64,000 bases of DNA from Sipunculus nudus (taxonomy: Eukaryota; Annelida; Sipuncula; Golfingiida; Sipunculidae). The notes beneath the pieces were generated by a model. That model had not been told where the DNA came from. It was given only the letters and a program-made list of their open reading frames with translations, and did not search any database. A program made the translations under genes and the position numbers. This document shows, piece after piece, positions 569-61,500 of the stretch. The DNA is taken from assembly GCA_026874595.1 (NCBI GenBank), contig CM049306.1, forward strand, positions 86,689,142 to 86,753,141, in the 5' to 3' direction. The first letter of the stretch is position 1, and each line of letters begins with the position of its first letter.

Positions 569-2010
569 ACAAGGCCTACAGGCCTATGTGAACCTGTACA
601 ATGGGATATACATCAGGTATAATGCTTCCATACTGGACCGTTACTTTTCAAGTGCATAATGAACATGTATCTGTACAATGCAAGTACTAAACATTTTGAA
701 CCCCAGTACAAGCACCAATTACACAAACGTAACTGTTGAAATACTAGCATGGGTGCACACAACACAAAATTATTGTAGGATGAGCCACCAGTCTTGTGTA
801 CAAGAAAGCCATCGAAGATGTATGGAAATGCAAAATTTAAGCCAGATATTTCATACCACTCTTGGGCTATATGCATAAAAGCATGAAACAATTGTAGGTG
901 GCACCGCAAGTCTTGTATACAACAAAAATATCCGAGATGTATCAATGTGTTTAATTTCATGCTGATATGTCAAATCATTCTTGAGAAATAAGCAGGAGAA
1001 TACACTGTGCAAAAATTATTGTAGGTGGCGCCACTAGTCTTGTATATGACGAAGATATCCGATATGTGTAAAAATGCATGATTTCAGGCTGATATATCAT
1101 ATCCCCCTAAGAATTAAGCAGGTACATGCACAGGTGCAATATTCATTATAGGTGGCAACACCAGTCTTGTGTACGAGAAAGCCATCAAAGATGCATGGGC
1201 AATTAAAAATGTCAGGCCAATATATCAAACTTCTCATGAGTCAGGTGCACTGGGCTGACCAAGCTTAGGTGAGGAAGACTGCTGCCCTGAGTGAACCAGA
1301 ACATATTGCCAGCTGCAGCTACTGCGCTTAGTGAACTCTTTGACCTGTACCTGGCTGCACTGAGTGAACTCTTGACCTGTTGCCTAATCTGATACAGTTT
1401 GCAGTCTGCCAAACTTTCCAAATGTTTTTCAACTTTTCCCCTGTAAAATATATGTTAATGTAGGAGGTGCCACAAAAGGCTCAATCCCACATTTGATATG
1501 TAACAGATTTTTGCATAAAACTTGGGGATGGTAGACCTGCATTTCCTGAGAAATTATGTGTTAATGTACTGATGACCTACGACCCCCATACAAAAAAGGT
1601 CAATGCAGGTGGCGCAACCATTAAATCATTTTCAAATACGAGTCCTTGACCAACATTTGCAGAAAAAAATTGTTGATGATAGCTCTAACCTTTTCTGATA
1701 TTGTAATTTTAGTATCCTTTTTTGGCTTAAGTTTTAAGGACTTAAGTTCAGCTTCCTGTAACTCGGCCAAAATTCACTGAACTGGAACCATTCAAACAAA
1801 CTTAAGAGAGATTGTTTCAGAGATTATTTTTGTGAAATATTGAACTATTTCCCTGGAAACTTTTAGAGGAGAAGATTATAAAAGGTTTTTTTAGCCTTTT
1901 CCTGATAAAATCTAAGTAATTGCAGAAAGCAAAAAATATTAGCATGATATTAGGTGATGCTAGCTCCTGCCATTTTTTAGATAGTATGGGTTATTGTATG
2001 GACAATGGAA
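569..2010 (+). repeat. P2-family element, copy 1 (3' end eroded)
   Basis: The element starts with ACAAGGCCTACAGGCCTA, an ACAAG start fused to an AGGCCT hairpin, followed by a decayed form of the P2 end GCGAACCTGTG. Inside are about four units of roughly 130 bases built around GTAGGTGGCGCCAC-like sequence (near 890, 1022, 1148 and 1603). They alternate with text such as TGATATATCAAAC and GAGAAATAAGCAGG. The same text is found in P2 copies at 18522 and 28517. The 3' end fades out near 2010. No coding capacity is visible. Confidence 0.6.
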
Positions 2011-2653
2011 TGCCGGATGATGTTTGAATATTATTGGTCCTGATAACTCTGTATTGTACAATTCAATAAAACATGATTCAGAGAAAAAATACAAAACTCT
2101 TCATTTACTTTTATATTTCTTGATGTAATTTACACATATTTTGTTCTATGAATATACAAATATGGTGCCACTGATAAATATTCTGACAAGTCTTAAGCAA
2201 GAAATTATTCTTATCAAACCACAAGTATATACCATCAACAGTACTGTGACTATATAATGCACATGAGTATGTCTGTTGAAAATTTACAGATGAAAGATTT
2301 TATTTGGTTTAGAAGACTTGTTGATAAATACCAAGTGGCTGTGTCACTGTTGTTACAGGTGTAAGCATATGGTGCTGTTATATATATTTATATAAAGTTT
2401 ACAGATTTAATCTAAGTTGCTTAATTCCTTAAGCTTCTTATCAGTTTAATCTATATATGCCAGCATCTCCTTCTGAAGCATCAGATGTCAAAAACTGATT
2501 CTCACATATTAATTTTCTATTATATATATATATATATATATGCAGTAAATGCATGATCACATTATCCATCCAACATTTGTTGAATAAGCTCACAGACTGA
2601 GGGCCAAAAAATCCTCATTTACTTGTTCCATCAGTTTTTTTTTTTTTTGCCAT
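2011..2653 (-). other. WASHC1 3' flank and probable 3' UTR
   Basis: These bases lie downstream of the WASHC1 stop on the minus strand. They are AT-rich, with a (TA) run at 2520-2541 and a T run just below the stop that reads as poly(A) on the gene strand. A possible AATAAA signal on the minus strand lies at 2299-2304. The true cleavage site cannot be fixed from sequence alone. Confidence 0.35.
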
Positions 2654-7404: not shown

Positions 7405-8690
7405 ACTTAAGATAAGATAAGATAAGATAAGATAACATTTATTAGCCTTCAGTTCCAGGAATTTGTTGTTGACTTGCAATTCATTACATAAAAATAAATA
7501 AGTAAATAGATAGATAAATACATAAAAATAACACAAAAATACATAAAAATCACACATAACATATTGATGCATGTAAAATTAAGCATGTAAAAATGATAAA
7601 ACAGATAATTCTGCAGGTAAAACACATAATTCAAAACATTAAATTTCTAAGAGGGTTGTGAGTTAAAGTGTTTAATACTGTGTGGTACGAGAGATTTTTT
7701 AAAACGAGTTGTTCTGCAGAATATTGTATCTAGGCGTTTACCTGAAGGTAAAAAACGGAACTCTGAATATAGGGGATGTGTTTTGTCATTCATGACCTTA
7801 GATATGAAGGCCATTGTTTTGGTTTCACAGATTTCCTGGTGTGTGGCAAGAGAAGTACCAGTTATTCTACTACTTCTCTTCCTGGTATTATTCAACTGTT
7901 TCTTTAACTTATCAGATATATTTGTAAACCAGCACTCCAGTGAATAAGTAAGGACACTGGAAATTACTGAATTATAAAACATGGTAATTATGGTTTTGTC
8001 AATATTAAGCTTTCTTAGATAATAAAGGTAATATAATCTTTTGCTTGCTTTCTTGGATTGATTCAACACATGTTCTTTCCAATTCAGATTTCTGTCAATA
8101 ATACATCCTAAGTATTTATAATTTTCTACAATATCAACATCTTCATTTTTGATAGCAACTGGGGTAATTACAGATTTTGATCTCCTAAAATCAAATACTA
8201 CTTCTTTAGTCTTCTTTACATTTAACTGAAGGTAGTGTTCCTCACACCAACCAGTCACATATTGAATGGTTTTCCTGTAGAGCGATTCATCATTCTTGTG
8301 TATCAGGCCTAGAATGACAGTGTCGTCTGCATATTTGATAATTTTACAATCTGAAAGGCTCACAGACAAATTATTTGTATATAGAATAAAAAGGACTGCT
8401 GACAGAACACAGCCTTGTGGAGCACCAGTATTTATGATTATATCTGAAGAAGTTTCTTTGCTTGTTCTAACATGTTGTCTTCTATCCGAGAGAAAATCTA
8501 GAATCCACAGACAGTAGGAAAGAGGAATGTTATATCTACAGAGCTGATTGATCATAATGTGTGGCTGTATTGTATTGAAGGCTGAAGAATAATCAATGAA
8601 AAGTGATCTGGCATAATTTCTGGGGTCCCTGTCTAAGTGTTGATAAATATAATGAGTTAATGTGGCACTTAAACTGCCAAAATACTCAAG
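7405..8690 (-). mobile_element. CR1/Rex1-like non-LTR retrotransposon, 5'-truncated
   Basis: The minus strand is open from about 8690 to 7647 and encodes the second half of a reverse transcriptase. Visible motifs are DYSSAFNTIQP (motif A region), NTGAPQGCVLS (motif B), KYADDTVILGLI (catalytic motif C), WCEEHYLQLNVKKTKEVVFD, and a C-terminal LLNS-type tail region. The wording matches the CR1/L2/Rex1 group of LINEs as I know it. Endonuclease and N-terminal RT are absent, which is usual 5' truncation; an upstream TAA closes the frame near 8695. After the stop comes AT-rich 3' UTR and a (TTATC)n tail, seen as GATAA repeats at 7411-7437 on the plus strand. The frame has no internal stop, so the copy is fairly young. 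Confidence 0.85.
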
Positions 8691-8713
8691 ACTTTACCAG
8701 CTTTTATCACAAT

Positions 8714-9574: not shown

Positions 9575-9579
9575 GGATG

Positions 9580-10046: not shown

Positions 10047-10105
<59 letters not shown>

Positions 10106-10688: not shown

Positions 10689-13600
10689 GTAAGTAACCAT
10701 AATTCCAGCCAGGTATACCAAGGATATTAGCATTAAAATACTAAATTTCCTTGATACACCTGGTGTTTACATCATGTAGATAAAAGAAATATTTTATATA
10801 ACAAAAAGTTTTTAAAGGAACTATATACATCATTTTGGCAAAGCTTTTTAACGACATCACCAGTGTTCAGCTAATCCATCATGCATTGTATCATGCTACC
10901 ATTTTCTATGGTTGCTCGTCGACAGTACGTTTGGGAAATATTATAATAACACCTGCTTAGACATAAATGTTATATACTTAAATATTATGTGCAACAATTA
11001 ATACTTATGTTTTCAATATGAAAAGCTATTGGAAACCTTTCTATCACAGACTTAGGGAAGCTTATAACGATGTATTAAGTATTGGGTTAAACTTTTGCAT
11101 ATGCCAAAACATTGATATCAGAAGCCAGTGTACAGTATGTTGATGAATTTAGACAATTTCAAGTTGGTAAATCGAATTGGGTATCTCATGTAAGAACATT
11201 GTTGGTCCAATCTGGTTTTGGATATGTTTTGATGGCACAGTACATTGGAGATGTCAATTATTTTATGAAAGAATTGGAAATGAGAATAAAAGATATGGCT
11301 GTTAATAATTAGCTTGATGATATTGAGTTTGCAGTAAACTATACTTTTATGGTACTTTTAAATCCAAATTAACTCTTAAAAGGTATGTATATTGTATTCC
11401 AATTAAAAAAAAACGTACAGCACTTGCTACTCTTCGATGTTCGAATCATGAACTGGCTATAGAAATGGGACGTCATACAGATGTATATCTCGTGAAGAGA
11501 GGATATGTAAATATTGTTTATGCCATGGATACAGAATTGTTGAGGATGAAACTCAATTTATGCAAGAATGTAAATTATATCATGATTTGAGGTAAAGATA
11601 CTTTAGACAAGACTTACATTATCCAAGTGAACAAAATTTTATAAAATTATTTAATTTAGATCATCTAACTGAAATAACAAAAATCGCTGCGTATGTATGT
11701 AGTTCCTTTTTTGAGGAGACGAAGAATAATAGATGGTTGAATTATGTTTTTGGATTGTTTTATACTCACTGATGATGGCAAAATAGATACATTATGTACG
11801 TAGGTATGCAGTAATGTTATATACGTGTTAATGGCATTATTTATCAGACTGCTACTTACATTATATTGATGTATTTGTTTGATTGAATGTTTGTTGAAAT
11901 GTTTGGAACTTTGGGCCTGAGGCCTTCTTCCTGAATGAACTTCTGTTCTGTTCTTAGGGAAGCGTTATTGTCTCTACATGGATGGTCAATCCTGGACAAT
12001 GGCACAGAATTTTTGCATGTATAATAATGTTCATTTAGCATGACGTAAGTATAACAAGACACACGCCATTCTCAACGAATTACTGACGTCAGCCGGTGTG
12101 TCTTCGGCATGGATAGGAGGGACTGTCCGTGCTCTCTACTTTAACTGGATGAATGACGGTAAGATGTCAAAACATCAGCGTCCACAAACTTTCAGGTTAT
12201 TTATTTTATTCATAATTAACCTTGCTCACCATAATAATTTTGGAGGAAGTCACTCTTCTTTACTAGGAGCTTAAATAAGAGAAACGGTCCCACACCCAGT
12301 TGTCCTATAGATATTCATGTTCTTTGTGACTCGTGTTATTATTGACAAAAAGGAAACCAGCTCATATATGAAATTTTAAACAATTTAACAATTTGATTCA
12401 AGCAGCATGTCTCTAACAGAGGTGTTGTTTTCTTGAATTTTTGAATTATACTTTTCATGATGAGAATGATGGAACAGTATAGAACTAGTGATTCTGAATT
12501 AAACTAAATGATTATTTCCAGAGCTGTTACATATGGGGACATTTTATCAGGGTTGTTACACAGCTGGCGACCCATTCAACTCTCCAGAACTTAGGGAACA
12601 GTGTAAGAGACATAAAGTTATCTCGGACTGTGTATCGTTTTGCAATGATTACAAGTACCTGGGCCTTTATGGGGCAAGTACCGGCTTCATCATACATACT
12701 TTACTGCAAAATAAGTAGTAATATAACGTCATTTTTTTGCATTAAAAGGAAACGCAGCATAAATATATAAAGCCATTTTATCATATAGGAGGAAATATTC
12801 TGGGAAAAAAATTGCCAGATTAAACGTTTAAATTAGAATACATGCGATTTAGGTAAATTATGTGCTGGGGCGGATCCAGGGTTTTGGAAATGGGAGGGTC
12901 CAACCCAAGAAGACAAATTAGAAAACCTAAACAAAGGTCATCTGATCCAGAAACGGAGGGGTTCAGGCCAGGAAGATTGAGTAAAACTTTAAGAATGGTT
13001 GTTGCTGCTCAAAAGAAGGGGGGCCCGGGCACCCTTGACCCCCACTCTGGATCCGCCACCGATGTGTTGTCGTGACCTGTTAACACATTTCATAGTTGAA
13101 CTTCACTCAATAATCTCACTTTCGTGTTATAGGCCTATAAAAAATCAAATGTTTTATCTTAATGTATTCATTTAAAAGTGCATGAATATAGTTATCTTCT
13201 GATGTATATAGTACCACACGTACTTGGAAAATTACTGGTGCTGTTGTGGAAACGCATTTGGACAATCAGGAGAGGGAGATCCGAGGGAATGCCCATCTCA
13301 TCGAGAGGACCTCAGAATCGCCAAGAATTACACACACAATGCTGTAGATATGACAACCGCCCAGGTTGTGTGAATCTTATTAAAAAAGTACTCGTGCTTT
13401 CCCATGTATTTTTGTTTTAATATTTTGTAATTTGATCCATTTATATATCGCCACATTTATTGATTGTATCCGCCAAAGCAAGATCTTGCGAATATTATGT
13501 TCTCAAGTAGGTTCCGCCGCCGCCGCGTCCATTTCCGTAGAACTCCTCTGAAACCCTTGAGCGGATCTTTCCGAAAGCCAGCATTTATTTGGTCACAAGT

Positions 13601-16600
13601 GAACTGTTGCCTAACAAAGACTGGTGGTGCATCCTGCAATCCTTTTCGTGCAGTATGAATCTGAGTGTCTTAGTGAAAATAGTCCATATCTCTGGAGTGG
13701 TTCAATGTTTTTGGCTGAAATTGTGCATGTCCATAGACATTCCAAGACTGGTAGCGCCATCTGTAATCATATTTGCGTGGCATCCATCCATGCGTTTGCT
13801 TTAGATAAAAATCTTTCATATCTCAGGATCCCAATGTATTGGTCTGAAATTTTGTATGTTTATCCATCTTGGAGAATTTTTCTCGTAGACCAGACAGTTG
13901 GCGCCACCTACCTTCCCGTTTTCGTAGAATACATTGATGTCCTTCTCTCAGGAGTGGTTTGTCATATTGGCCTGAATCTGAATTTGTGCATGTCCATAGA
14001 TCTTTGATACCTCCATCTCGTACTCGAAATTACAATGGTTTTCGCATTGCGTTCATCCGTCCCTATGCTTATATCGCTTATATCTCAGGAGTTGATTGAT
14101 GAACCAGCCTGAAACTTTGTATGTTTATCCGCCTGGATAGCTTTGTTATATACCAGAATACCTTTAGAATACATTGATGCCCTTTCTCAGGAGTGGTGTG
14201 CCGTATTGACCTGAAATTGTGCTTGTCTATAGATCTAAATACCTCCTGGTGGCGCCATCTACGACTGTTTTTTTGTGGTGCCCGTCCATCCCTCTCTTTC
14301 GTTGAAAATCGCTCAAATCTCAGGAGTGGCTGGATGCATGTAAAATTTTGTTTATCCGCGTCTTGGATAGCATTGCTTTATACCTGACAGATGGCGCCAA
14401 CTGCCATTCTCTTTTGTAGAATACATTAATGCATTTTTCTCAGTAGTGATCGGTAAATCGGCATAAAATGTTGCATGTTAATCCGTCTTGGGAAGATTTC
14501 TCATTCACGAAACGTGGTGGCACCGCCTGGAATCACATATTTGTAGAATAGGTTCATGCATTTATCTCAGGACTGTTTTAATGTATCAGCCTGAAATTTC
14601 TCATCCACAGATTTTGGATACCTCCACTTTGTACATAAGTGGCGCCACCTACCTTTTCGTTTTCGTAGAATATATTGCCCTTTTTCTCAGGAGTGGTTTG
14701 ATGTGTTCACCAGAAAATTTGCTTACATGTCCATAGATCTTGGAATGGTTTATCTTGTATACAAGACAGCTTTGGCCACCTACAATCAATTTACTCTCGT
14801 ATCCGCCTGTAGATCAGTGTTGTTGAAAATTACACAAATATGAGGAGTTTAATTGGCATCTCTGTTTCGACAAATTTGAAGTCATGTCATGTCAGGAACA
14901 TTCAGTGCCGGACTTTTTCCATGCCTCTGTGGTGATACCTGCAGTCGTTTGTCGACTGCCCATTTTCTAGATTTTTTATATGTATACTATGTGTGTAACG
15001 TAACAGCACCAGACGGACCGGTATGGGAAGCTGGCTATCCTTCAGGATTAGAAGTTAATCAGGATGCACTTTGTCTAGTGGTCAAAGCTAGTAAGATATC
15101 AGGAGTGACAAGAATGAGACAGGAACACAGAAACTGCGAGGAATTACATAATTTTGTCTGCTCGGTAAGCAATGACATACGATTTAATTATGACGGTGCG
15201 TTTACTTGACATATACCTTTAAAGTCTCTGCATTCTATAATAAACCTATGAAGTATATATGACGGTGCGTTTACTTAATATATACCTTCAAAAGCCCTGC
15301 CCTCTATCAAACCTGCCAAATATACTTAGTATAAAAATATATTGTGTACTCTCATAAAAACGAATGAACTCTCATTCGCAGTGTAAATTGTTTAAATGAG
15401 AGAAATCAAGTTATAAATCACTTTGGTTCAACATTCATTCTGTAATCCAGCTTTCACATATTCTACAAAACAGTAGCTTGGTTATGCACTTTTCTGTGAT
15501 GCTGAATGTGTTAACTGAATCTTCTATATCCAGAACCACGTGTCGATGGATGTGCACATGAATACTCTGAGTTTACTTTGGGATCGGGAAAATGTGTCAA
15601 GTATATTGATAATCCTAAATCATGGGAAGATGCGCTGTCGCTGTGTCAGCAGATTAACCAAAGGTCTTCTCACCTTTTATCTTTCTACAACTTCTCAGTT
15701 TATAAAGATGTAGAGGTGAAAATTGATGAGGTTTTACCAAATAATGAAGAGGTAACATTCTGGATAGCTGGTTCGAGTCGACGCTGGGTTTGGGAAGGTG
15801 CGCATTGATGCCTAAATTGGCTTTTAACTAATTATTATACCTCCGCATTGTTTTAATAGTGGGAGCATATTTAATCGAATTAATGAGCACGGTATAATGT
15901 GAAACACCAAATAAATATATTAAAATTGCAGATATTGTAATCTATGTCACATTTCTATCAGAAGACTCAAACACCCGAGTGGACATTGTAACTGACCACT
16001 GGATTAAGCCTCAAGAGAAATCTGTTCTGAAACATCATTGTATGATGGTGCTGACCGGTGGTGGTGATTGGGAATCAAAACCTTGTGACCCGGACATATA
16101 TAAAGAGTCATTCATATGTGAAACTGGTAGGATACATTGTCTTGCTTTGAGTGGATTACATACAAAAACAAAAGCTAGATTTTGTATATTTACTCAGCCT
16201 GACATTTTATACATGTGGCCTGTATTACTGTGTAATGTTTATGGGGAATTCCATGTAACTATTGCATACAATGATCATTAACTTAATATTCCACTCAAAT
16301 ATTCCAATACATCATCGATTAAGGAAAGTTGTAAAAAAATTACAACCTCTCGACTCGGTCTCAGAATATTTTTGTCGGTTGCCTTTCAGAAAACACACCT
16401 TTTGTGATAACAGAACGCTCTAATACAGAAAAGAATTTGAACTCCACACGGAAATATGTACCCTCAAATGTTCCAATCACTGATAGCATTTCTTCCGCTG
16501 AAATCACAAAGCAGTACCAGTTTTCGACAGCGTCCGAGCATATTCATTCTTCCCATATAAACGAGGAGCTGATAACAACGGATGAATACCGTTCTAGCAC

Positions 16601-19280: not shown

Positions 19281-20737
19281 AATGCTTCAATGCTGGACCA
19301 TTACTTTATATGTATATAAAATGCAAGTACTAAACATTTTGAATAAGAAAAAATTACACGAACATCACTGCTGAAATTCTGGCATGGGTGCACACAACAC
19401 AAAAACGATTGTAGCTGGCAACACCAGTCTTGTATAGAACGAAGCTATCAGAGATATACACTTATGCCAATTTTCAGACTGATATATCAAACTCCTCCTG
19501 AGAAATAAGCAGGGACACATTGTGCAAAATTTATTGTAGGTGGCACCAACAGTCTTGTATACGAAAATGCTATTCGATATGTATAAATATGCCCAATTTC
19601 ATGCTGATATATCAAATTCCTCTGTTTAAATAAGCAGGCACATACACTATGCAAAAGTCAATGTACGTGGCACCACCTGTCTTGAAAATGAGAAACCCAT
19701 CAAAGACGCATAGACAGGTCAAAATATCATCCAATACATCAAACTCCCCAAAGTTTGATGCACTGGGCTGACAAGGCTTAGGTGAGTAAGGCAGTTGCCC
19801 CAGAGTGACCTGTGACAAATTGCTGCCTCAAGCTACTGCACTGAGTGAACTCTTTACCTGCACCTGGCTAGACTGGGTGAACATTTGACCTGTACCTGGC
19901 TGCACTGAGTGAACTCTTGACCTGTTGCATAATCTGACACAGTTGGCAGTCTGCCAAAGCTCTAAATAGATTCAGGCTGAACTTTGGTGCCAAATATGAT
20001 GCAGTGAACAGTCTGCCAAAGCTATAAATAGAACGCAGCTACTGCACTGAGTGAACTCTTGACCCATACCTGGCTGCACTTCTTCCAATCCTGGCACTGT
20101 AACAAAACTATTTATAGAGCTGACATCATCTTGGCTAATGGCCAACATCAAGAAAACTGGCAATCTGCCAATGGTATACAAAGTGCCGCCATCTGAACAC
20201 AAAAGTAGTCCCTACATAAAATAACATGAAATTAATTTTCCCAATACAAAATGCTTTTCAGCTGACTTTTTATAAAAAAGAAATCAGGAATATATGTAAA
20301 ATTATTACGGATGCATACTGAATGCAAAATTAAAATACAGATATATCTCACTGATGGCTAATTCTTGAATTAAGTTGAGTAGGGATACCAATAATTTATA
20401 ATCCACGTACAGTTGTCTTTATATAGCCACAGAGAGCTGAATATCCATGATTGTAACATTGCCTGGTATGATGAAGCATTACCCTAGGATCATTTCTGTG
20501 CGATATTACACATATTGGCCATATGGTTTCAGAGAAAAAGTATTTTGTAGCCCTCAGTGTGATACAGGCACTGATGACCCTGTACAAAAAAGGCCGATGC
20601 AGGTGGCGCCACCAATACCTCAATTTCAGATATGACCTATATGACCAACATTGGCATAAAATTTGGTGATGATAGCTGCAGCCGTTTCTGAGATTTAAAT
20701 TTTAAAATGCTTTTTTTGCACAGTTAACAAAGTTAAC

Positions 20738-25630: not shown

Positions 25631-26015
25631 ATACTGTCCATTAAATCTGATACGTTGGTTACTTTTGCCAATCTTGTATCTTCGGGCTATACAACTTTTG
25701 GGGACCATAGTTACCCCTAATTTTATATACTCCATATAAAACGGAGAAATGAGCCCAGATTATGCCTATTGGAGGGTCCCTTTATGTAACCGCTGTCAAT
25801 TTTATTAAATAATGTATAGTTGAAAACTTAGATCAAGTGTTTAACTGTCTTAATGTTTTACCAAGGGGCCGCTTATCATCATTCTTTATGTTTGATTATG
25901 TATAATTTTTTGTGAGAGATATTTTTTTAAAATAGTCATGTCTAGGTTATTGCCGCAAAAATTATACTTGTGTCATAAGGACAGATACTGCCGCTGTTGT
26001 ATTTGTATTTTCAGA

Positions 26016-46185: not shown

Positions 46186-46224
<39 letters not shown>

Positions 46225-46225
46225 T

Positions 46226-46260
<35 letters not shown>

Positions 46261-46405
46261 TATTATTATTATTTCAGTTGATTCACATTTCTAAATTGCT
46301 TCAACATTCATAGCTAATTAATCTGGTTTATATTACCTGTCAACAGAATGGGTTGCAGGGAGAATGGGAGGCTTAGGGGTAAGAGAGAATGGGAGAGAGA
46401 GAAAA

Positions 46406-46447
<42 letters not shown>

Positions 46448-46460
46448 TGAGATTTACTGT

Positions 46461-46500
<40 letters not shown>

Positions 46501-49500
46501 CTCTCTGGTAATTACTGCCTGACCCAGCCTGACCCAGACAATCACAGAGGCAGTGGCTAGGTCAGAAGTTGAACCAGTTATGTAATACTGCCCAAGCACA
46601 CATTTCACTGACTGGATGAAAACAATCAAGGCATGGTGCTTGAAAAGTTGAATGACATCTAAAGTTTTTGATCAATTAGTTTCAAATTTCAGATTTTAAC
46701 AGATGAAATGCTTATGTGTACATGCTGTGAAAATTAAATCCACAGCACTAACACTGGTAACAGGAAATAAATGTCTACTGTAATTTATGTTAATTATCAT
46801 GCATGCTTTTTACAAAGTGGTTAACTGTTATTCAATAATTTCAGGTTTCCCATAGCCAAAAGTACCACTAGCACAAATGATATTAGAGTTAAACTATTCA
46901 TTAAAAATTAATTGGAATTATTGGGCAAAATATAATTTTAATTAAAAAATATTAACAGTAACATCTGAAAAGATTTCTTTTAATAATATAAATGAAATAA
47001 ATGATTAAAATAAAATTATAAAATATATTCATGAATGCATTAATGAATACATTTTTAAAGTATTTGTACCCAAATTCTTTCTATTTACCTGTATTAGTGT
47101 TTTTATTCATTTTCATTATTGAACTATTGATTTTTTTTTAATCATATTTGAATACAATTATTAAGTATTCTCTCAAGGTCTCATATTTATTCAGTTTCTG
47201 TCGAAAGAAACTGTTGAGAATCCACAAATTTAAATAATGATTGTAACTACCTGGTTTTATGGCTTTAATTTATAAAAAATATATTATATTCACTTTTGAA
47301 TACTTTCACATCACTGTCAAGACACTTATGACAATTATTAACATTATAGACATCATAATGAGAACTTGTCTTTAAGACCTGATTTTTTTATCACATTTTA
47401 AAAATTTTATTGATTTTTTTTTTTAATTTGTATCAGAAAAATAAAAATAATCTCTACTATGAAACTAATACATGTGTTAAAAATAACCCAAGGATCAAAA
47501 CAAACCAATATATTATACAAGAAGCAAACTGGAGTTGGGAATGTTTAATTTTATTAACTGAAATAAAGTTATCAGAAATATAAATTTTGATTATTTACCC
47601 AGTATCATGTAAAGCTGATACAGCCATGAGTGTTAACGTTATTATTCAAACATATTGACATCTTTAATGAGCACTTGTCTGAGTAATTTTTTAAAATTTT
47701 TGACATATTTCATTTTTTTTAAATTTTGTAATAAAAAAAAAACAACAAATTAAACACCTGGAAAAGACCTGGAAATTTAGAATATTTAATATGACCAAAT
47801 GCATCCTTGTCTATCATTAACTTGCTTCACATAATCCCTTTTAGTAAACAACAATTTTATTTAATTAATTATTTTTCATTTTTATGATTGAAATTAAAAA
47901 ATACCCAATGGTGACTGCATGGTGTCATTTGAAATATATTTTCAGTAATCCATGAAAGATCCATAAAACATCAGTAATTGCAAGGTCCCTGTTACTCATT
48001 AACCATAAAATTCCTTTTCCATTTATTTTTCTTAAAGTTGTTATTGTAAACCAATAATTTATTTTTAAATTATTGTTTATTGTTATGTTTTTGGCCAAAC
48101 AACTACAAGAGGAGGGGGGTTGAATAGTTATATCCAGCTCAGGCCACCCAAGAGCTGGCTGGCTGCAGTATATGCCTCCCTTCAAGCATGAAAGGTCAAT
48201 ATGGGGACATATAGAGGGGCTTCAGTACAGCCTAGGTGTGACATGGTCTCATAAAAAATGTAATAAAAGCTACAGTTTTTGGTTAATTCCTTTCAAATTT
48301 TAGAATTTAGAGGCTGAAATCCTTACGTGTGCATGATAAGAAAATTAAACCAGCAGTACTTACAAGGAAAAACGTGCCATGCCCAAATTTGGGCAAAATT
48401 TTAGGTACTGATTTCATATTGATGCAAATAACTTATAAAATTTGAAAAATTCAGATTTAATTTTCGGTATACAATTGAATCTTGATTAAATGGAGTTATA
48501 TCCCTGAAAAGAAGTCTCTAGCTTCAGCCATTCTTATGTTAAGTGAGTTAATATATTTCCTGATTTTTTATGAGGTGCATTATGTTCCGGCCCGTAACTT
48601 CAACAAATTACGCAATACTGACCTAATTTATGGTATGTACATAGAAAATGTATGGAAGAATATGCATATTCACTATGATCAAAATCAGATCTTAGGCAGT
48701 CTTATAGTGTAACAATGGTTTTTTATGGAAAATGGAGGTTTTTCCTAAATATCTCAAAGGAAGGAAGTCCTGATGACCCAATTTTCGGTATGGTAGGAGA
48801 TTTTGGGAACATCTAACTGTATGCCGAATTTCAGATTCGTAGGTCTAACGGTTTCAAAACGTGCCAGTTTAACGGACGGACAGACGGACAGTCAACGGAC
48901 AAAGGATCACGACTATAGCTCAGATGACTTATAGTCAGCTGAGCTTAAAACCTAACAAAAGATCACCAGGTCTGGAAAAGGGGGTGACCAGGCTGCATAA
49001 TTTTGTCTGAAACACTTACAAGAAGCTTGCAGCGGATGAAAAAGTGGGGGTCATGACCCCCTTGGCCCCTCGCCTGGATCCGCTTCTGTGTTATATCCTC
49101 CTGGGTAGGTATCATATTTTCCTGTCAGATGGTTTGTCAGTTGGCAACTTTACTCAAAATGAACAGATTCAGATGGAATATTGTTGAGGATTAGGTTAAC
49201 ACTGAAGGGACATTTCATGATTTTGTGTCAACCATGTGGGTACATAATAGCCATCCTAAAGCTAGTAAATATATTAACTGTAGGATCAAATCAACCACAG
49301 AGTGAACAAGAATGGCTTTGTTTTTGCAGCACAAAACAAATATATGTCTCCCCCCTATGGGCCATCCCAAAACATAAGGTGTGAAATATGCACTATCTCA
49401 AAACAATGATTCTAGATTTCAGCAGATTTGACTCTGAAGCTTCAGGTCATCGCTTTTCAAACTCCAATGACATTTTGTCAGGAAAGACTGGTGAATCAAA

Positions 49501-52500
49501 TTTGAAGAAAAAATCTTCAGTACTTTCAAAGTTATGGGGTTTACAATAATCCTAGAATTGCATAAATTTGACCTTTAAGATCAAGGTCAAGATCACTGGA
49601 TTTTGAACTCCTTCTATTATTTGGTAGGAACAATGTTTTAAATTTTGGAGGACAACATGCAGGCCTTCAAAAGTTATCGCATTCACAAGACAACACTAAT
49701 GAACGGCTGATCTGACCTTGAAGATCCTAGCAAGGGTCACCTGTTTTCAATCTTGTCAGAGAACATGGTAGGAACAATTGGTGTACCAAATTTAAGGACA
49801 AAATATAACAAGTGACCCATGGGTCATGACGCTCAGCTGACTGGGAAGAGATTCACAAAAGGAAATTTTATCATCAGAATGGTAGATACCCATTCAACTG
49901 AAGCATCAAACAGATTAACCAACAGGCCAAGATTTAGTCTGTATTTATATATCTGAAAAATAGAGAAAAAATGTGTAAACTTTAAAAACTAGAATATGGG
50001 TAGCCGACAAGTGACTACGTGTATCTGACAAAATCAGAGTGAAGTGAGGCATGGATTGAGTGGCAAGGGGAAACAGAGTGAGGTATGTTGCATATTAGCA
50101 TGGATGTCTGCAGCCTAAATGTGTATGTAGGTTGTGCAACCTACCACAAATCCAGAAAGCTGTCCAAGTTGTATACATATGCAAATAATTTTTAGGCAGA
50201 AAAGTCAAACCACTACATGGATATGAGTGATTTTAGCCCACGGCAGACAAACAGACAGACGCTGTGCAAAAATGGTTGCAGTTTTGTGTATGATAAAGAC
50301 CTATGTGAGATCTAAACACAAGCACAATTTTGGCCCAATCGGTCAAATGGTTCCTGAGATATTAGCTTGGATGTGTGCAGCGTTAACTAGAATGTAGGTG
50401 GCGCCACCTGTCATAAAATCAAGAAAGCTATCCAGGATGTATAAACCTGCAAAATTTTAGGCAGTTATGTCAAACCACTACAGAGAAATGAGTGATTTTA
50501 GGCCATGGCAGACCAACAGACAGACGCTGTGCAAAATGTGCAAAAATGGTTGCAGGTGGCCCCTCCAGTTTTGTGTATGATAAAGATCTATGTGAGATCT
50601 ATACACATGCAAAATTTTGGCCCAATCGTTCAAACGGTTCCCGAGATATGAGCTTGGATGTCTGCAGCATAAACTAGAATAAAGGTGGCGCTACCTGTCA
50701 TAAAATCAATAAAGCTATCCAGGATGTATAAAACTGCAAAATTTTAGGCAGATATGTCAAACCACTGCCAAGATGTGAGTGACTTTATTGCACGGCAGAC
50801 AAACAGACAGACGCTGTGCAAAAATGGTTGCAGGTGGTGCCACCAGTTTTGTGTATGATAAAGAGCTATGTTAGATCTATTCACATGCAAAATTTTGGCC
50901 CGATCGGTCAAACAGTCCCGAGATATGAGCTTGGATGTCATCAGCGTGAACGTGAATGTAGGTGGTGCCACCTGTCATAAGATCAAGAAAGCTATCCAGG
51001 ATGTATAAAACTGCAAAATTTTAGGCAGATATGTCAAACCACTGCCGAGATATGAGTGACATTATTGCACGGCAGACAAACAGACAGACGCTGTGCAAAA
51101 ATGGTTGCAGGTGGCGCCACCAGTTTAGCGTATGATAAAGAGCTATGTTAGATCTATATACATGCAAAATTTTGGCCCGATCGGTCAAAAGGTTCCCGAA
51201 ATATGAGCTTGGATGTCATCAGCATGAATGAGAATGTAGGTGGCGCCACCTGTCATAAAATCAAGAAAGCTATCCAGGATGTATACGCATGCCGAATTTC
51301 AGGTGAATTAGTCAATTCACTGCAGAGATATGAGTGATTTTAACCAAAGGCAGATGAACAGATGGACACTGGAAACATGGTTACAGGTGGCGCCACCATT
51401 TTTTGTGTTTGTTATAGAGCTATCCAAGGGCTACATTAGTATAAATTTTATTTCCTGATCAGTCAAACGGTTCCCGAGATATGAGCTTGGAAAGCTGATA
51501 AAATCAAGTCCCAGAGGAGCTCTCTGGAAACAAACGCAGCAACGGCGGAGGAACCCGGTCAAAAACATAGTATCCACAAAACTTCGTTTTGGCGGGTACA
51601 AAAATACAGGTGGCTCCACCAGTCTGCAGAAACTAATAAAAACACTTACAAACATCAATATCCATGCAAAGAATCATGGTGATCTCCCCATTAGTTGTTC
51701 AGATACTTCAGCTTTTGTATCAAATTGTCCATTATTCTGAGGGATACTTCAGAGTCCTATAGCTTGAAGGATATGGGTAACAGAGACCTAATTTTAAGTT
51801 TCCACAGGCACTTTTCATTGGGCCTTCTTGCATGACAAGAATGAAGATTCTAGGTCCAGTTGTTGCGATTTGTACCCTGTTGACAGATAACCACATCTTT
51901 AAAGGTATCAAAAAAAGAGAAAAAAAATCGTAAAAATTTCGAAAAAAAATACAGGTGGCGCCACCAGTCTGCAGGAACTGATGGAACATCTCATGATCAA
52001 TATGTATGCCAAAAACATGACCATCAGTGTTGTAGTTATTGAGATATTGAAGTTTTTGTATGAAATTTTTTACTATTCTGGGGGGTACTTTGGGGCCCCA
52101 TAGCTCAAAGGATATGGGTAACAGAGACCTAATTTCTGGTTTCCAAGGAGATTTTTCATGGACCTCTCAGTGTTTCAAGAATTAAGATTCTAGGTCTAGG
52201 CTTTACGATTTGTGCCTTGTTAACAGATGTTCACATTTTTAAAGGTCTCAAAAATAGAGAAAAAAATTTGTAAAAAATCGAAAAATACAGGTGGCGCCAC
52301 CAGTCTGCAGGAAGTGATGGAACATCTCATGATCAATATGTATGCCAAAAATCATGACCATCAGTCAAGTAGTTAATGAGATATTGAAGTTTTTGTATGA
52401 AATTTTTTACTTTTCTTGGGGGTACTTTGGGGCCCCATAGCTCGAAGGATATGCGTAACAGAGTCCTAATTTCTGGTTTCCAAGGAGATTTTTCATGGAC

Positions 52501-55500
52501 CTCTCAGAATCCCAAGTTACAAGGTTCTAGGTTCAGCGGTTACGATTTGTGCCTGGTTAACGGACTGACAGACGGACGACGGACAAAGAGTGATCGCTAT
52601 AGCTCAGATGACTTTCAGTCAGCTGAGCTAAAAAACTTTAAAAGTTATGGGGTTCACAAATAAATTTACATTTTGGCAGATTTTACCTTGAAGATGAAGG
52701 TCAAAGTCGCCGAGTTTTGAACTTGTCCAAGATTTTGGGATGAACAATGAGTGTTTAAAATTTTTAAAGGAAAATATTTCGCCCCTCAAAAGCTATCATG
52801 TTCACAAGATATCATACAGACAATGGCACTAAAAACAACATCTCCCCTGTAGGGGGGGGGGCATAAAATTTTTTACCTTTCTTTTGCTGTATTATGAACT
52901 TTGACATACTTGAAATAAAATTTGAAGTGCTAGGTTAATGTAATTTAAAGTCAGGTCCCATGACAACTGATAAGCCAATAGAACAGGAAAAGTTAGGGAG
53001 CAGAATTTGAACTATCATTGAACAGGAGTAGCAATTTTAACAAGGTCTTTATTGCTGTAGATAAAAGTTACTGAACTCATTTAAAGCATAATACTCACAA
53101 TATCAGCGGGAATTGTAGTCCCATCACCTGGTGTTCCTAGGTATGTATCACCATCATTCAGTCTGACAGGGGGCCAACCGGTCAGTAACTCAAGTAAAAC
53201 CTAAAAGACAGAAGAGGGTTGTGAGGAATAAGATATATTAAATATTGTTTACATTGAATAATTCACCAATTAGCATAAAGTTTAAATTTACCTTGCTTGT
53301 CCACAAAATATCTGAAAAAGTTATTAATGTGATTTTGTTTGAAAGAAGGCCATTGAGAAGTGATTAACCTAGGGGGCACATTGATATATTTGGGAGCATT
53401 TGTAGAAAAAAAAACACAGGCCAACAGACATTTTTGGCTATATCTAGATTTCAGTTTTACTTATCCATTCTATAATTAAATTTTTTTCTTCTTGACTCTC
53501 AGAAAAATACTATTTACTGATCATGTAACTCTTTTTTTTTTTTTTTTATTACCAACAGAACAAAACTTACAATACTGTACAAACAATCAAACATACATGA
53601 CATATTGATACAGATGTGGGGTTGGGGATGTCCCCACACTGTATCACATACGGTTGCTGTGTTTGTGGCAGACAATGTTCCAAGACCAGTTTGATGATAG
53701 AAGTCTTTATTCAATAGCAAGAGGTCTGGGACAGTCTCTCTCTCTGAGAGAGCCACCCAGCCTCCCTGACTCACTCTCTCTCTCTCTCTGACTCTCAGTG
53801 TGCACTACAGATAGTTTTGTTACAGAGCTTTCACGTGACACATGAGACGTACATATCCATATTTCTGCATTTCGTCATAAAAGCTAAACATTATTGGATG
53901 ACCCAAAGTAGGTCACAATTACATCAGAGTTATAAGTGTACATCCTACTTTCGTGAGATCTGATTGGACTAAAGTTCTGTGGAAAATCCCAAGTCTGACC
54001 TGACATACATCCAGTTATAGAATGACCTACAAGTCCTATTTGGAGGACAGTGCTTATATACACATGCGGAGTCTCATAAAATAACATGTTTTAATTGTGT
54101 TCTACCATTCCCTCATAAAGACTAAACACATAAGTCATTCTGTGACACTATTTCTGTTTGTACAGATATAAAATAGACCTTAATGGTTTGGTGTACTGTT
54201 CTCTGATTAAATTAGGAGAGAAGCCTATATGTGTGTGACCGGATGACTGGTTGTTGGGTGTCATCAATTATGAGAAGTCATTCATTGTTCAGTCTGACAT
54301 GCCTGAAACTGAGCTTAAATTTGTGAAATATGAAATGTGAAATATTCCTTGAAATATGTGTTAAGTCACAAATATGCACTTTCCTACTCCATAACAATAT
54401 GTTACATAACATCACTGTAAAATTTTACATTAACATAATACATCAAATACACAAACATGTGACATATACAACAAAGCAGACATAAACATCCTTATTCTAG
54501 CAGTAAAAATTCAATTTGTTTCCCATATAATAATATCTAATTTTCCCCATATAGTTTTATGTACAGCTAACTTTCCTTTGGTGATGGCTACTTCTTTTTC
54601 CACACAGTAATATTTTGTAATAAACTGTGTGGCACCTTTAATAGTTAATTGCTTCTTTTTACATCTTGTGGTGTATATATAATATTTCATTAAGAGAATA
54701 ATTTTATCTAATAATTTATTTGTGCTATTATTCAGAATTATATTCTTGAACAGAAAATTGATATTGTAATTGGGATACTAAATTGGATTTAATTACTGTA
54801 ATTTTACCAATTGGTGTCAATTTTCGTTTTGACCATGTTTCCACTAATTTATTTATTTTTCCTATTAAAGGTTTAAAGTTAAGTTCGCTAAGATTTTGGA
54901 GTGTACTGTTAATATTAATTCCTAAAAGTGTAATTGGTCCCTCTGTCCATTGTAACCCTACATGTTTTATTTCTTCTTTTCCATATTCGTGATTACCCAT
55001 AGGCATTACTGCGGTTTTTTCTATGTTAATTTTTAAACCACTAATTTTATGGAATCTCTTAAACTGTTCAATAGTCTCATGAATCACTGGCCCTCCTCCT
55101 TTAATAAATAGATTCCTGTCGTCTGCATATTGAGATATTACATGTTTAGAATTTTCTACTTCTATACCTTTAATATTTACATTATTTCTAATACTCGATG
55201 CTAAAATTTCTGCGCAGACTATAAATAAATAAGGAGACATAGGGCAACCTTGCCGTACTCCTCTGCTTATTGGGAAGAAACAAGAGCTCCACCCATTATT
55301 AATAACACAAGATGATATGTCAGTATAAAAAATTTTAACCTACTTACAGAATATAGTTCCAAAATTATAGTACTGGAGTGTTTTGTTTATAAAAGACCAT
55401 TCTAATAAATCAAATGCTTTTTCAAAGTCGATTGTTATTAAATTAGCTTTAATTTTGTTTTTACTGCAATAGTTATTTAAGTTATAAATTCTATTAAGAC

Positions 55501-58500
55501 TTTCTCCTATATAACGATTTTTTAAAAATCCAGTTTGATCTGGATGGATTATTCTTTGAAGAACTGATTGAAATCTTCTTGCCATACATTTAGTAAGTAT
55601 TTTATAATCTATATTAAGCAAAGAAATTGGTCTCCAGTTCTTCAAACTTGGTGGGTCTTTTGATTTTTTTGGAATCAGTGTAATAATCCCTTGTTGTTGA
55701 GAAATATTGAGCTTTTCTTTTAGGTATGAGTATTCAAAAGCACTGATTAAATATTGTTTGATATCTTCCCAGAAATATCTATAAAATTCAACTGTAAGAC
55801 CATCTGTTCCAGGAGTTTTCCCATTTTTAAAAGATTTAAGACATTCTAAGATTTCGTTTTCAGATAAATCGGCATCACAAAGGTTTTTTTCTTCTTCTGT
55901 TAGTATTTTGTGTGATTGTGTAAAGAATTCTGTATAAAAATTATCATCTAAATTAAACTGTGTTGAAGTATACAAATTCTTATAAAATTTCTCTGTTTCT
56001 TTTAAAATCTTATGGTGGTCTGTTACATAGTGATCATCAACTTTAAGTTTAGTAATAGTCTTTCTGTTATATAACCTCTTTTCCAGATTCAGAAAATATT
56101 TAGACGGTCTCTCGCCGTCCTCAACCCATTTAGTTTTACACCTTAACATTGCTCCTTCTGTTTTTTCTTTTATAATATTTTCAATTTCTATTTTTTGCTG
56201 ATCTATTTCTACTGTTAAAGCATCATCTAGGCTATCTGCATATTGTTTCTCTAATATTTTTAATTTGTTTTCTAGTTGTTGTAGTTTTGTTCTTTTTTGC
56301 TTGTTTAGTCTATGAGAATAATTAATGGATGCCCCTATTATTTTACATTTAATAGTATCCCATAGCAAAGATGAATTGGCACTTTTATTATATTCTTTAG
56401 TTTCTTTAATAGTTTCTTTAATAAGTTTTATATAATCTGAGTTATTCAACAGGTTACGATTAAATTTCCAGAAGCCTGGTCCTCTTTTATTTAATTTCAT
56501 ATCAATTGTTATTGTAGCAGCAGAGTGGTCAGTTTTAAAACCTGGTTGGATATCTGTTTTATGTACACGTTCAGAAAGACCTTTAGAAATAAGTATAAAA
56601 TCTAATCGGCATAAAATAATTTTAGGGTTTAATCTTTTCCAGGTATATTGCGATACATTTGGGTGTTGTTTACGCCATATATCCACTAAGTCTAAGTTTT
56701 TTATCCATAGGTTCACCACTATTTGAGCTTTTTTATGAGTTTTAGCCCTGCCTCCTTTTTTATCTTTAGTGATATTAAGAACTAAGTTGAAGTCACCTGC
56801 TAATGTTCTATTGTCATTTGGTAGTAATTCTATTCTATCATGTAACTCTTTGCCACCTTTGATGGATATATATTTAAGAAATCATCTTACCACACCAAAT
56901 GCATAGGTGTCTAATTTTGATGAGATATCCCCCTTGAATCCTTCAGGTGCCATATAAACTGGCGTTCCGATGACCATTTGTGTACACACTGCAGTTGTGT
57001 TTACTCCAGCTGGTCCTCTTCGACAAAGGTCAAAGTCACTTATTTTAGGTGAAAATGAGGAATCCAGCAAAACATTGGCACTGCAATCAATCAGTTAACC
57101 ATGATTTGAAAAATATGTGAACACTGATGAAACATTTAACTGACTGGACTCTTTTTTTCCAAATTGATGATTTTAACAAAACACTAATACACATTGTCAG
57201 AGGTCTGGAATATTTTAAAACATATATATCTAACTGGCAAATTTAGGCAGCTGTAAATGGTAGAAGTTAAACTAAAAAATATTTATTATAAGCTGTAAAT
57301 ATATAGCTTCTGTAAATGTTTATACGGTACATCCCCATTTGCGTTGCCCCCTGTTCAGTTGCTAAATTTTTTACTGTAAAAAAATGCAGAAGTAGCATTA
57401 TAATATTTCCTACATTTTTACCTAGAACATGAGTACCTAATTATCAACAGACAACAATAAAGTGTGATGTTTAGAGGTGTCTCCAGGCTAGTGTGGTTAA
57501 TAGGTAATACTATACATATTGTAATAAATCCACTCACGATACTATACAAGATGAGATATCAGAGTGGTGTCAGAGTTCAAAATCTGAGTCTTTGTTCTTC
57601 TTTGTTCATGCTGGATAAGCCATTGCCTCCATGCTTCACGAATAACTAGAATGAGTTTGTTTTTGTGACTTCAAAACAGATACAGGTCTCCAATCACTTT
57701 GGACCCCCCATCCCCAAAATTGAGGAAAAATACATGGACTACTTCAAAAGCTGTGAGGTTTATAAACATTGTAACATTCTGAAAATTTGACCTTGAAGAT
57801 TAAGGACAAGGTCAAACTTTTTGAACTCATGTGAGGTCTTGGTAGAAACAATTAATGAGTCAAATTTAACAAAAAATATTGTAAAGTTCAAAAGTTATAG
57901 TGTTCACAAGAAATGACACAGATGACAACTACAAATGGCACCGACAGACCAACCACTATATGTCTCCCCCATTGGAGGGCAGACATAATGAAAGATGAAA
58001 CATCCCTTTAATTGATCAGATTTTGTGCTCAGTTAGCAAATGAGATAGCACTTGACTGATTACTGGCCAATAATGTTTTGACTTGCATCTGCTAGGCATC
58101 CTGGTCCTACAATGTAGATGGAGCCCTGAGGACATGAAAATGGCAAAGAAGAAGGCTACAATGTACAATATTTTCTTGAAAATTATCTTTTCTGACAATG
58201 TTTTCAAGAGATGATTAAAGTTAAGCCATTTTTTGTGGCCAGATGTACCTTTTAATATCCCTGTGTATCATGGGTTTTTCTTCATGTGTATGCAGGAAAT
58301 TGATTCCTCTTGCTGTACCAATAGCTATAGAAATCCTGGTGGGAATATTCAGTGGTGTACCTTCCTGTAATTAGAAACAAATGCTGATAATTCATAGGTG
58401 GAGCTAATTTGAAAACCAAATAACAAGATATATGGTAAAATTTCCAATATAACCCTCGACTTGTAAAGAAAAAACAATTTAATACATTAAATGAACTTTT

Positions 58501-61500
58501 ATAAGGTGGTCACACTTTTTTATTACTCTTCATTATACATCTGGTGTATTTTATTGCAGTCATCATAAAGATGTTTTACCTTGCATGCCAGCCGGTCCAT
58601 CAGAGAACCGTTTGCCATAAAATTGTACACTAAACATATGTTATCAGCTTCCTCAGCATAACCAAGTAATGGCAGAAGATTCTCATGTTGAAACCTGAAA
58701 TACAGAAAGCTATGTCACTGTCAATTCATTTATGTGATTCAATAGTGATCAACAGTTCCAGTCTTAACTTCAGTGAACATGAGTAATAACACAGGGTCTA
58801 TTCATTTGGCCTATTTCTGCCCCTGTTCTCCTGACATTTTCACATGAAATTACCCTTTTCTCCATATTCAGAGTTTTAAAAACCTCAAAACAATATATAT
58901 TTGCCATTGCAAAACTATTACAATTGTTAATTGAAAGCTACATATATTTTAAAGATGAAACAAAATTGTATTTTCATGCTGCTAGAAAGAATGCTGTTTT
59001 GAAGAAATAATTTATTATACACAACCTTGAAAGAACCTTGATTGCGGTCATTAAATGATCTCCTTTTTCTAAAGCACTTCCTTCAGTGTAAGACATCTTT
59101 TTCACTGCCACAGAAAATTCCTTATTGTTTTCATCTGTTGCTTTACCTGAAAAAGATAATGATGTATGATTCAGCATTGGCATTCAAACTCTAATCCAAA
59201 ATTCAGTCTTTGTATTCAGAGATTAGTGTTTATTTGGAATAGACTTCAGATTAAAGTACTCAACAGTCATTACCAAGCTGTAGTTCCAGTACTTTTTACA
59301 ACATGATATGCAATACAATAGTGTATTTTAAAAGAAACTAGATGTGTCGGAAAGACACGAATGCCCCCCCCCCCCCCCGAGGCAAATTAGAAACATTTGT
59401 TAAATTTTTAAAAAATTTTTAAGTTCAGGAGGTGTCGTATGGTCAAAAGTTGGTCATCAAGGGCAAAATGCAAACTCGATCTGTAACGGGTCATTATCAA
59501 GCAACACACCAAAAATCAGGCCAGTATCTGCAGGCATTGTGAAAAAAGTCCATACATGTGCATTTTCCATAAAAATTTCTTTCATGTCTTTCATGAAATT
59601 TTCTATGTTTAGGAGCCATAAAACAATCAAAAGAAGGTCAACCGGGATGAAACGCAAACTTGATCTGTTACTGTCATTATCTGCCCACACATAAAAAATC
59701 AGGGTGGTATCTGCAGGCATTGAGGAAAAAAAGTCCGTAAATATGCATTTGTTATGAAAATTTCTAATTTTCATGAAACTTTCTATGTTCAGGAGCAGTC
59801 AAATGGTCAAAATTAGGTCAAATGGGATTAAACAAGAACTTGATCTGTAACTGGTCATTATCTGCCTACACACCAAAAATCAGGCCTGTATCTGCAGGCA
59901 CTGCCAAAAAAAAGTCCGTACATGTGCACTTTTTAATGAAATTTTCTATGTTAGAGCACCGTCAAACGGTCAAAAGTAGGTCAACTGGGACAAAACATGA
60001 ACTCGATCTGTAACTGGTCATTATCTGCCCACACACCAAAAATCAGGCCAATATCTGCAGGTATTGTGAAAAAAAGTCTGTACATGTGAATTTGTGATGA
60101 AAATTTATATTTTTCATGAAATTTTCTATGTCCAGGAGCCGTAAAACAGTCAAAAGTAGGTCAACTGGGACGAAAAACAAACTCCATCTGTAACTGGTAA
60201 TATCTGCCCACACACCAGAAATCAGGCCAATATCTGCAGGCATTGCGAAAAAAGTCGGTACATGTGTATTTGTCATGAAAGTTCATATTTTTCATTAAAT
60301 TTTCTAAGTTAAGGAGGTGTTAAACCTTCAAAAGTAGGTCAACTGGGACAAAACACAAACTCGATCTGTAACAGGTCATTATCTGTCCACACACCAAAAA
60401 TCAGACCAATGTCTGCAGGCATTGCGAAAAAAAGTCTGTACATGTGTTTTTGTCATGAAAATATCTATTTTTCGTGAAATTTTCCATGTTTAGGAGCTGT
60501 AAAACAGTCAAAATTAGATCAACTGGGACAAAACAGGAACTTTATCTGTAACTGGTCATTATCTGCCCACACACAAAAAATCAGGCCAATATCTGTAGGC
60601 ATTGCGAAAAAAAGTCCGTACAAGTGTTTGATTTCGGAATGACGAAAGGACGGAAGGACGGCACGACGGACATGGGTAAAACTATATGCCCCAGCCACTT
60701 TGTGGCGGGGGCATAAAAATATAAAAAGATGGGATCACTGATGGTTTCCTGCAAGTATAGTATAAAGACAGGTGCACAAAGAATCAAGGGGCAGATCCAG
60801 GATATGGCGAAAAAGGTTTTTCTTTCAGTGTTAGGTGAGAGAATATTGTTCAAGAAAACTCCACATCTCAAAGAAAGAGGGGTTACCCATAAAAACTAAC
60901 AAAAAATACTGCAAAGAGAAGTAATTTCTCCCAAAATGGTAGAGGGGATTAAACCTCATGTACACCTACCCTTTTGTATTCCCCTGTGAATCTATAACAT
61001 CTGTATGTTAATAATAAGAAGGTGATGCCACTTCACACTTTTTACATTTGTTAATGATAGATTTATAAGCCTAATGTATAGTATGACTACACAAAATAGA
61101 CATAATATGTACCTAGTAGGTCTACATGAGTCCACTTGTGCTGTTTTTGCAGTTACGTAATGGCTCAAAATTACTCACAGCCATATACTCTTCAGCACTA
61201 CTAAGTGCTGCCATCTACTGTATACTTATTCTTATTAATAATTAAATTACAAACAGCTTGACAGACATTGACTTATACAAGAGGTAACAATGAGTACACA
61301 GCAAACATACCCAGGTAAACATGTCCGAAGCCACCACTGCCTAGTAACCTCTGTGTGTTGAAGTTTTCTGTAATGCTGGCCAGGTCATCTGAACTAAACA
61401 TCTGTGGATCTTCTAGAATACACACATGAATAACATTTCTCATTACTCATGCAGAATTGATCTAACCATGAACTCTACATGACCTTAATAGCATATTCAT

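Follow-up and report, generated by a model that had tools for sequence, protein, structure and literature searches.

Seven families of probable Helentron-associated elements in Sipunculus nudus and a putative autonomous Helentron with the ends of one of them

Introduction

What kind of mobile element builds families that follow a single plan while their terminal hairpins differ, and what moves it? The question is raised by a 64,000-nt stretch of the Sipunculus nudus genome (C1:86689142-86753141, hereafter the window), in which an earlier note, made from the letters alone, described at least seven non-coding families (P1-P7) and likened them to Helentron-associated elements (HINEs) and to molluscan pearl elements. 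The published HINE plan comprises subterminal inverted repeats (subTIRs) with an inverted repeat (IR), a GTCY microsatellite, repeats, a palindrome and a T-rich target (PMC7492417, PMC4067079, PMC2374699). The element class itself is already known.

Here, we analyze the window against the 1.43-Gb genome (contigs C1-C17 listed, 61-111 Mb each), find that the seven families are very probably HINEs, that is, non-autonomous Helentrons moved by rolling-circle transposition, and describe an element with RepHel (Rep-helicase) and endonuclease-type domains that carries the ends of one family, P5.

Results

Seven families on one plan

Seven families are represented in the window by 15 elements or fragments, several of them nested; with other inserts included, they cover 39.8% of its length. 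On the top strand the order runs from ACTAGA or ACAAG (TCTAGA in P1_14k), here called the A end, through a family-specific hairpin, a subterminal repeat, a tandem core and a GGAC or CGG run to a closing G-end hairpin, one arm of which equals the subterminal repeat in all families but P6. Read on the other strand, the plan is that of a HINE: an A/T-rich site, subTIR and IR, a GTCC or CCG microsatellite, tandem repeats, a 3' subTIR, a family-specific palindrome and CTAGT or CTTGT. Because this reading fits the published plan, and because the coding strand of the RepHel element described below has the same polarity, the 5'-to-3' direction given in the earlier note has to be reversed: RepHel sense runs from its "3' hairpin" to the ACTAGA/ACAAG end.

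In HINE sense, the 3' ends are CTAGT in P1-P4 (CTAGA in P1_14k) and CTTGT in P5-P7, and the 5' ends are (T)GTATCC, ATGCC, AGCTC or AGCCC. The 5' subTIR adjoins the T-rich flank, the 3' subTIR lies internal to the palindrome, and the palindrome stands near the 3' end. A 5' IR and a GTCY-type microsatellite are likewise present, with CCG runs instead in P1 and P2. The exceptions are P3, whose subTIR is a poly-C/G tract, P6, with a subTIR of only about 9 bp and no clear IR, and P7, whose run is weak. The elements are as follows (window coordinates; strand in HINE sense).

569-2019, minus: P6a, of the AGGCCT family; 3' end at 569, 5' end lost near 2019; homologous to P6b and P6c
13466-14971, plus: P1_14k, the sole opposite-oriented element here, stem GCAGTCG/CGACTGC
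19281-20735, minus: P6b, 3' part, with no recognizable terminus, broken by an insert flanked by long terminal repeats (LTRs)
27130-27384, minus: P6b, 5' part, with a GAC-rich run and a ...CAGGTTCGC end
27385-27519, minus: P1 fragment, a 3' end lacking ACTAGA
28524-35210, minus: P6c, holding P5_29k and P4
29156-32028, minus: P5_29k, within P6c and holding P2
29921-30895, minus: P2 (TGGCACC/GGTGCCA), within P5_29k
33252-34280, minus: P4 (TCAGC/GCTGA), within P6c
38952-43884, minus: P5_39k, holding P1_40k
40316-42061, minus: P1_40k (GTAGTCG/CGACTAC), within P5_39k
44840-48945, minus: P5_45k, also found by the anchored scan
49306-52864, minus: P7, the outer element around P5_50k
49808-52629, minus: P5_50k (GACCCATGGGTC palindrome), within P7; ends and core type as in the autonomous element
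49988-51599, minus: P1_50k, within P5_50k
59337-60714, minus: P3 (GTGTC/GACAC)

All six hairpin arm pairs named beforehand are present, four of them recovered by direct pattern search (GTAGTCG, GTGTC, TCAGC and TGACC) and two located at 29921 (TGGCACC) and 569 (AGGCCT). In P7 (49306 to about 52864), the seventh family, hairpins stand at both ends, the G-end one being the weaker. A scan anchored on the whole plan (ACTAGA or ACAAG, a hairpin, and a subterminal repeat recurring as a hairpin arm 0.5-6 kb on) returned six window elements, all on the plus strand, versus none in 60 of 60 dinucleotide shuffles; it does not pick up P1_50k, P1_14k, P5_29k, P3, P6 or P7. A looser, anchor-free scan was noisy: it gave 16 matches where shuffled windows averaged about 5, and only two of the 16 belong to the elements described here. 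The claim of at least seven families on one plan is thus confirmed, as is, outside P6 and with P7 weaker, that of a G-end hairpin whose arm matches the subterminal repeat. Across the genome, exact matches to the 3'-terminal pattern number 6547 for P5, 2750 for P1 and 22 for P3; the reversed pattern is absent for all three. No Rep domain was found among the 38 window frames scanned, and Rfam gave no window match at gathering thresholds.

An autonomous partner of P5

With 150 of 195 candidates scored, a profile search of the genome returned at least 143 Helitron_like_N stretches, some of them within open frames longer than 2200 aa. An apparently intact RepHel-endonuclease element at C17:35625477-35640361, minus strand, has the P5 5' end at its start and the P5 3' end at its end. 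The open frame, minus-strand positions 35633527 to 35626502, has 2342 codons. In profile searches its C-terminal part scored above cut-off for Herpes_Helicase and under it for Exo_endo_phos families; Exo_endo_phos_2 passes the cut-off in the C10 copy. On the RepHel-sense strand the element starts TTTTT-AGCTCAGCTGAC...CAACTGAGCTC...TTTGTCCGTCGTCC at C17:35640361, which is the P5 5' end with its hairpin and GTCC run, followed downstream by P5_50k-type repeats containing GGTGGCGCCACC. Long upstream repeats are common to the C17 and C5 copies at 96-98% identity. The P5 3' end lies about 1.0 kb past the C17 stop, where 34 of 35 bases equal window 49841-49807.

Since P5 3' ends are common, with one exact copy per about 218 kb genome-wide, we tested the boundary of the 3' region, using that of the autonomous element as query (P5 terminus at query 1065) and scoring 40 of 2017 candidate places. 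Six non-self copies of the entire 3' region, five at 98-99% identity and one at 89%, stop at query 1062-1069, within 4 bases of the P5 terminus. Among the five close copies, four have a listed RepHel stretch about 3.6-3.7 kb upstream of the start of the 3' region; for the fifth (C8) no upstream stretch is among those listed. Fourteen other places match the last 120-165 bases only (12 stopping at 1061-1069, one at 1039 and one at 1084) and look like shorter relatives. The 3' ends read in the C17, C5, C9 and C10 copies have four different flanks, each starting TT; the C10 copy has one base changed at the palindrome centre and adjoins another P5-type end.

Because 5' end, core type and 3' end are common to both, P5 is directly linked to this element, which its predicted domains and termini mark as a putative autonomous Helentron. 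The search for such a partner, proposed in the earlier note, therefore succeeded at both ends for P5, the only family for which a non-coding HINE and a RepHel-endonuclease element with the same ends were found. Reading 2.2 kb past the frame of a related C13 element revealed no P5 3' end, nor did the region read past that of a C11 element.

Two further observations concern these elements. A whole P1-like HINE lies inside the autonomous element in both copies (C17:35634476-35640361 and C5:42914400-42922900), and the protease-like match varies among the RepHel frames, being OTU in the C11 element (C11:50383793-50387404) and Herpes_teg_N in C17 and C13.

Insertion without fixed-size target duplication

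For five of the nested elements, we joined the flanks, compared them with a paralogous copy and scored the match against the best of 500 random joins. Empty sites were clean in four of these five insertions (79/85, 56/60, 55/59 and 61/66 identities), each scoring above the best random join, and a second paralog of the last site matched at 58/71, a value without random-join scoring. The surplus at these junctions is at most one base, with one site also differing by 3 bases a few bases off. Beyond the window, at least 39 other P1 copies, at 96-98% identity to this end of P1_40k, have matches beginning at query 4-17, position 17 being the first base of ACTAGA. The eight P1 loci read (the window's own and seven more) have unrelated flanks, and the five other ends readable at these loci stop at GGCGGATAC, then AAT. 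On the HINE strand the P1 target is AT^T and that of P5 is T-rich.

T-rich insertion without target duplication was therefore seen at four of five nested sites, eight P1 loci (five at both ends) and four autonomous 3' flanks, which supports the conclusion that these elements insert without a duplication of fixed size. The empty-site check called for earlier thus bears out the absence of duplication; the target, given there as A runs, is better described as A/T-rich sites.

Hairpins conserved in shape between families

The G-end hairpins of ten elements gave z of -1.8 to -5.5 against shuffles on the top strand and -0.9 to -5.3 on the bottom strand. For the A-end palindromes of P1_40k, P1_14k, P2, P3 and P4 the values were -2.4 to -4.8 on the top strand and -1.3 to -4.7 on the bottom strand, the HINE sense. 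Those of P1_50k and four P5 copies fold no better than shuffles on either strand (z -0.6 to +1.3, 45-base window), so that the proposed folding check came out favorably at the G ends and only in part at the A ends.

Across families, the stems are unrelated in sequence yet self-complementary, and those of P1 and P2 differ entirely in spite of similar flanking subTIRs. Covariation inside the P1 family is not significant: the 28 cells include a single compensated pair (T-A to C-G), one G-U pair and two broken cells, and 123 of 500 shuffles were as good. Conservation of shape therefore rests on the comparison between families, which confirms that hairpins are kept while their sequence changes. The idea is not new, having been published in 2008 for DINE-1, whose 3' stem changes sequence and keeps pairing (PMC2374699). 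In Helraiser, a stem swap retained about 90% of activity, and an altered loop acted like a deleted hairpin (PMC4778049). That hairpins are read by shape, as the earlier note suggested, thus gains from the unrelated, self-complementary stems and the Helraiser stem swap, and loses from the P1 result and from the Helraiser loop change, which abolished the gain, yet loops differ freely here.

A palindrome shared by unrelated cores

The 12-bp palindrome GGTGGCGCCACC occurs 45 times in the window with at most two mismatches (positions 1024-52290), versus 0.27 expected. All but two of these sites lie in HINE spans, in the cores of P1, P2, P4, P5_50k and P6, five families with unrelated ends; the other two are inside the LTR-flanked insert (24173 and 26184). 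Outside the palindrome, some cores are alike (z up to 11.5) and others are not (z near 0). Because only one of 14 copies with two changes is compensated, and a CpG-type change sits at the centre of 11 of the 45, GGTGGCGCCACC is more suggestive of a site conserved in sequence than of a hairpin. The sole mention found in the literature was unrelated, judging by its title.

Viral contigs scanned for the P5 3'-end, P5 hairpin and core-palindrome patterns yielded 3, 0 and 59 stretches, respectively. As blastn (E 1e-4) aligned not one of these 62 loci to the window, the matches were rejected as chance.

Neighboring elements tend to share orientation

Fourteen of the 15 window elements have a common orientation (two-sided binomial 0.001), as do eight of nine when only the outermost are counted (0.039). 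P5 orientation is balanced genome-wide (3307/3240). At the start of one chromosome (first 100 listed P5 places, C1 0.2-17.8 Mb; HINE patterns only) it is clustered, with 33 runs versus 50.2 expected (P 0.0002). P5 pairs are alike in 13/14 cases below 20 kb, 16/22 at 20-50 kb, 23/34 at 50-100 kb, 43/73 at 100-200 kb and 69/113 at 200-400 kb, and beyond 400 kb in fractions of 0.53, 0.48 and 0.58. P1 alone, at the start of C1, has no significant clustering (46 runs versus 50.9 expected, P 0.19).

At the start of C1, pairs of one P1 and one P5 agree in 12/12 cases below 20 kb, 21/25 at 20-50 kb, 16/27 at 50-100 kb and 41/66 at 100-200 kb, and in about half beyond 200 kb. The nearest P5 within 50 kb agrees with P1 in 24 of 27 cases, a result matched by none of 99 circular shifts. 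With pairs closer than 10 kb left out to exclude nesting, 28 of 32 such pairs at 10-50 kb agree (19 of 22 counting the nearest only), a result that was not expected. Because pairs overlap, the P values are approximate. The LTR pattern of the insert (52 places genome-wide) and P3 (22) are too few for an orientation control. Runs of at least four A and at least four T are about equally frequent in the window (720 versus 683), so simple target skew does not explain the shared orientation there.

Other features of the window

The LTR-flanked element that splits P6b (20738-27129, 6.4 kb) has 454-bp direct repeats with two differences; three interior frames scanned (76-84 aa) gave no Pfam match, and the 52 genomic places of its LTR pattern are mostly pairs about 6 kb apart. 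A GC-rich tandem repeat of GACGCTTAACGCGCGCGTAACGCGTGCG type at 36040-36300 is unlike the HINE cores. Reverse-transcriptase frames (Pfam RVT_1) lie at 7647-8693 and 54728-56881 on the minus strand, and exons in the window match the WASH complex WAHD domain, marking this as eukaryotic DNA.

Discussion

Short, non-coding elements with subterminal inverted repeats might also be miniature inverted-repeat transposable elements (MITEs) of a cut-and-paste (DDE) transposon with subterminal repeats, the class in which DINE-1 was formerly placed (PMC2374699). However, the terminal inverted repeats and fixed target-site duplication of such elements were not found, the two ends are structurally different, and for P5 the idea is contradicted by both ends being common to a RepHel-endonuclease element; we regard it as scarcely credible. 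Canonical Helitrons, with 5'-TC and CTRR-3' termini and an AT target, would account for P1-P4 ending in CTAG then T and for P1 inserting at AT^T, as canonical Helitrons do. Yet CTAG is confined to P1-P4, P5-P7 end in CTTG, 5'-TC is absent, subTIRs, a 5' IR and a GTCC run are present, and the P5 partner has a C-terminal endonuclease-type domain, all of which makes Helitrons improbable.

The assignment to HINEs has points of its own against it. Of the seven families, only P5 is linked to an autonomous element, the assignment of the other six (P1-P4, P6 and P7) being by architecture, and the call of Helentron over Helitron draws on ends, architecture and the endonuclease-type domain rather than on Rep motif residues. 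P6 copies are decayed and have no clear G-end hairpin. The one-base junction surplus could be read as a 1-bp duplication, and the joined flanks of P5_50k in P7 score 41, below the random-join maximum of 66 (500 joins). In the autonomous element, the frame length across 35628042-35630653 comes from the search listing and agrees with both directly read ends. More diverged copies of its 3' region are interrupted or end earlier (query 912, 903, 760, 738 and others); four of them (C15, C7, C1 and C9) nevertheless have a detached final segment that stops at 1065-1069. The element also contains another P5 5' end, internal at C17:35639637 (0.7 kb inside), so that either of the two may be the one used; the internal end recurs in the C5 copy, which was read as far as that end, short of the outer one.

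If the families are HINEs, established work on Helitrons and Helentrons suggests how they would move: RepHel would nick at the 5' end, the displaced strand would be copied or circularized, the 3' palindrome would act as terminator, and the single strand would join a T-rich target.

The kinship with published systems supports the Helentron-associated, pearl-like identity first proposed. Cg_HINE of Crassostrea gigas likewise has a 5' subTIR and IR, a GTCY/GTCC microsatellite, a 3' subTIR and palindrome, a TT target without duplication, a satellite-like tandem core in fixed orientation, and related ends with unrelated cores (PMC7492417). In contrast to the element with P5 ends and core type found here, none of ten oyster autonomous Helentrons could be related to Cg_HINEs by the authors of that study (PMC7492417). 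DINE-1 of Drosophila shares the subTIR, a partial IR by the 5' subTIR, the GTCY microsatellite, variable central repeats, TT insertion and a 3' stem altered in sequence with pairing kept (PMC2374699, PMC4067079), although as described its stem varies between species, whereas here stems vary between families of one genome. The bivalve pearl family (CvA, CvE), DTC84 and MgE are alike, by description only, in having short tandem arrays between conserved ends (PMC7492417, PMC5139131). The Helitron Helraiser/Helibat1 has a 3' hairpin terminator, a swappable stem and a CTAG 3' end; unlike the present elements, it is a canonical Helitron with 5'-TC, and its loop matters, whereas loops vary here (PMC4778049).

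The direction of the replication fork may set the shared orientation of neighboring elements. In the bacterial IS200/IS605 elements, orientation follows replication (PMC5371812), and Cg_HINEs occur in both orientations (PMC7492417); among the papers listed by searches of the open-licence literature, none was seen to link Helitron or Helentron insertion orientation with replication in eukaryotes. By analogy, and tentatively, HINE orientation might record a local chromosomal polarity that falls to chance beyond about 200 kb, the single strand joining one template strand of the fork and leaving a fossil map of fork direction, a proposal we consider somewhat less likely than not. It is quite conceivable, if somewhat short of probable, that the pattern instead stems from selection, acting within introns or according to gene direction, or from local duplications that escaped detection: the effect is at gene-to-replicon scale (below 100-200 kb), and concordance was measured on HINE copies only, whatever their position relative to genes. 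The near-equal A and T runs of the window tell against this in no decisive way.

An autonomous element with the ends and core type of an abundant HINE family fills, in this genome, the link left open in the oyster, and the shared P5 ends make mobilization testable. If the orientation domains hold genome-wide with controls, this would point to eukaryotic rolling-circle transposons following the direction of replication (or transcription) and leaving a readable map of it.

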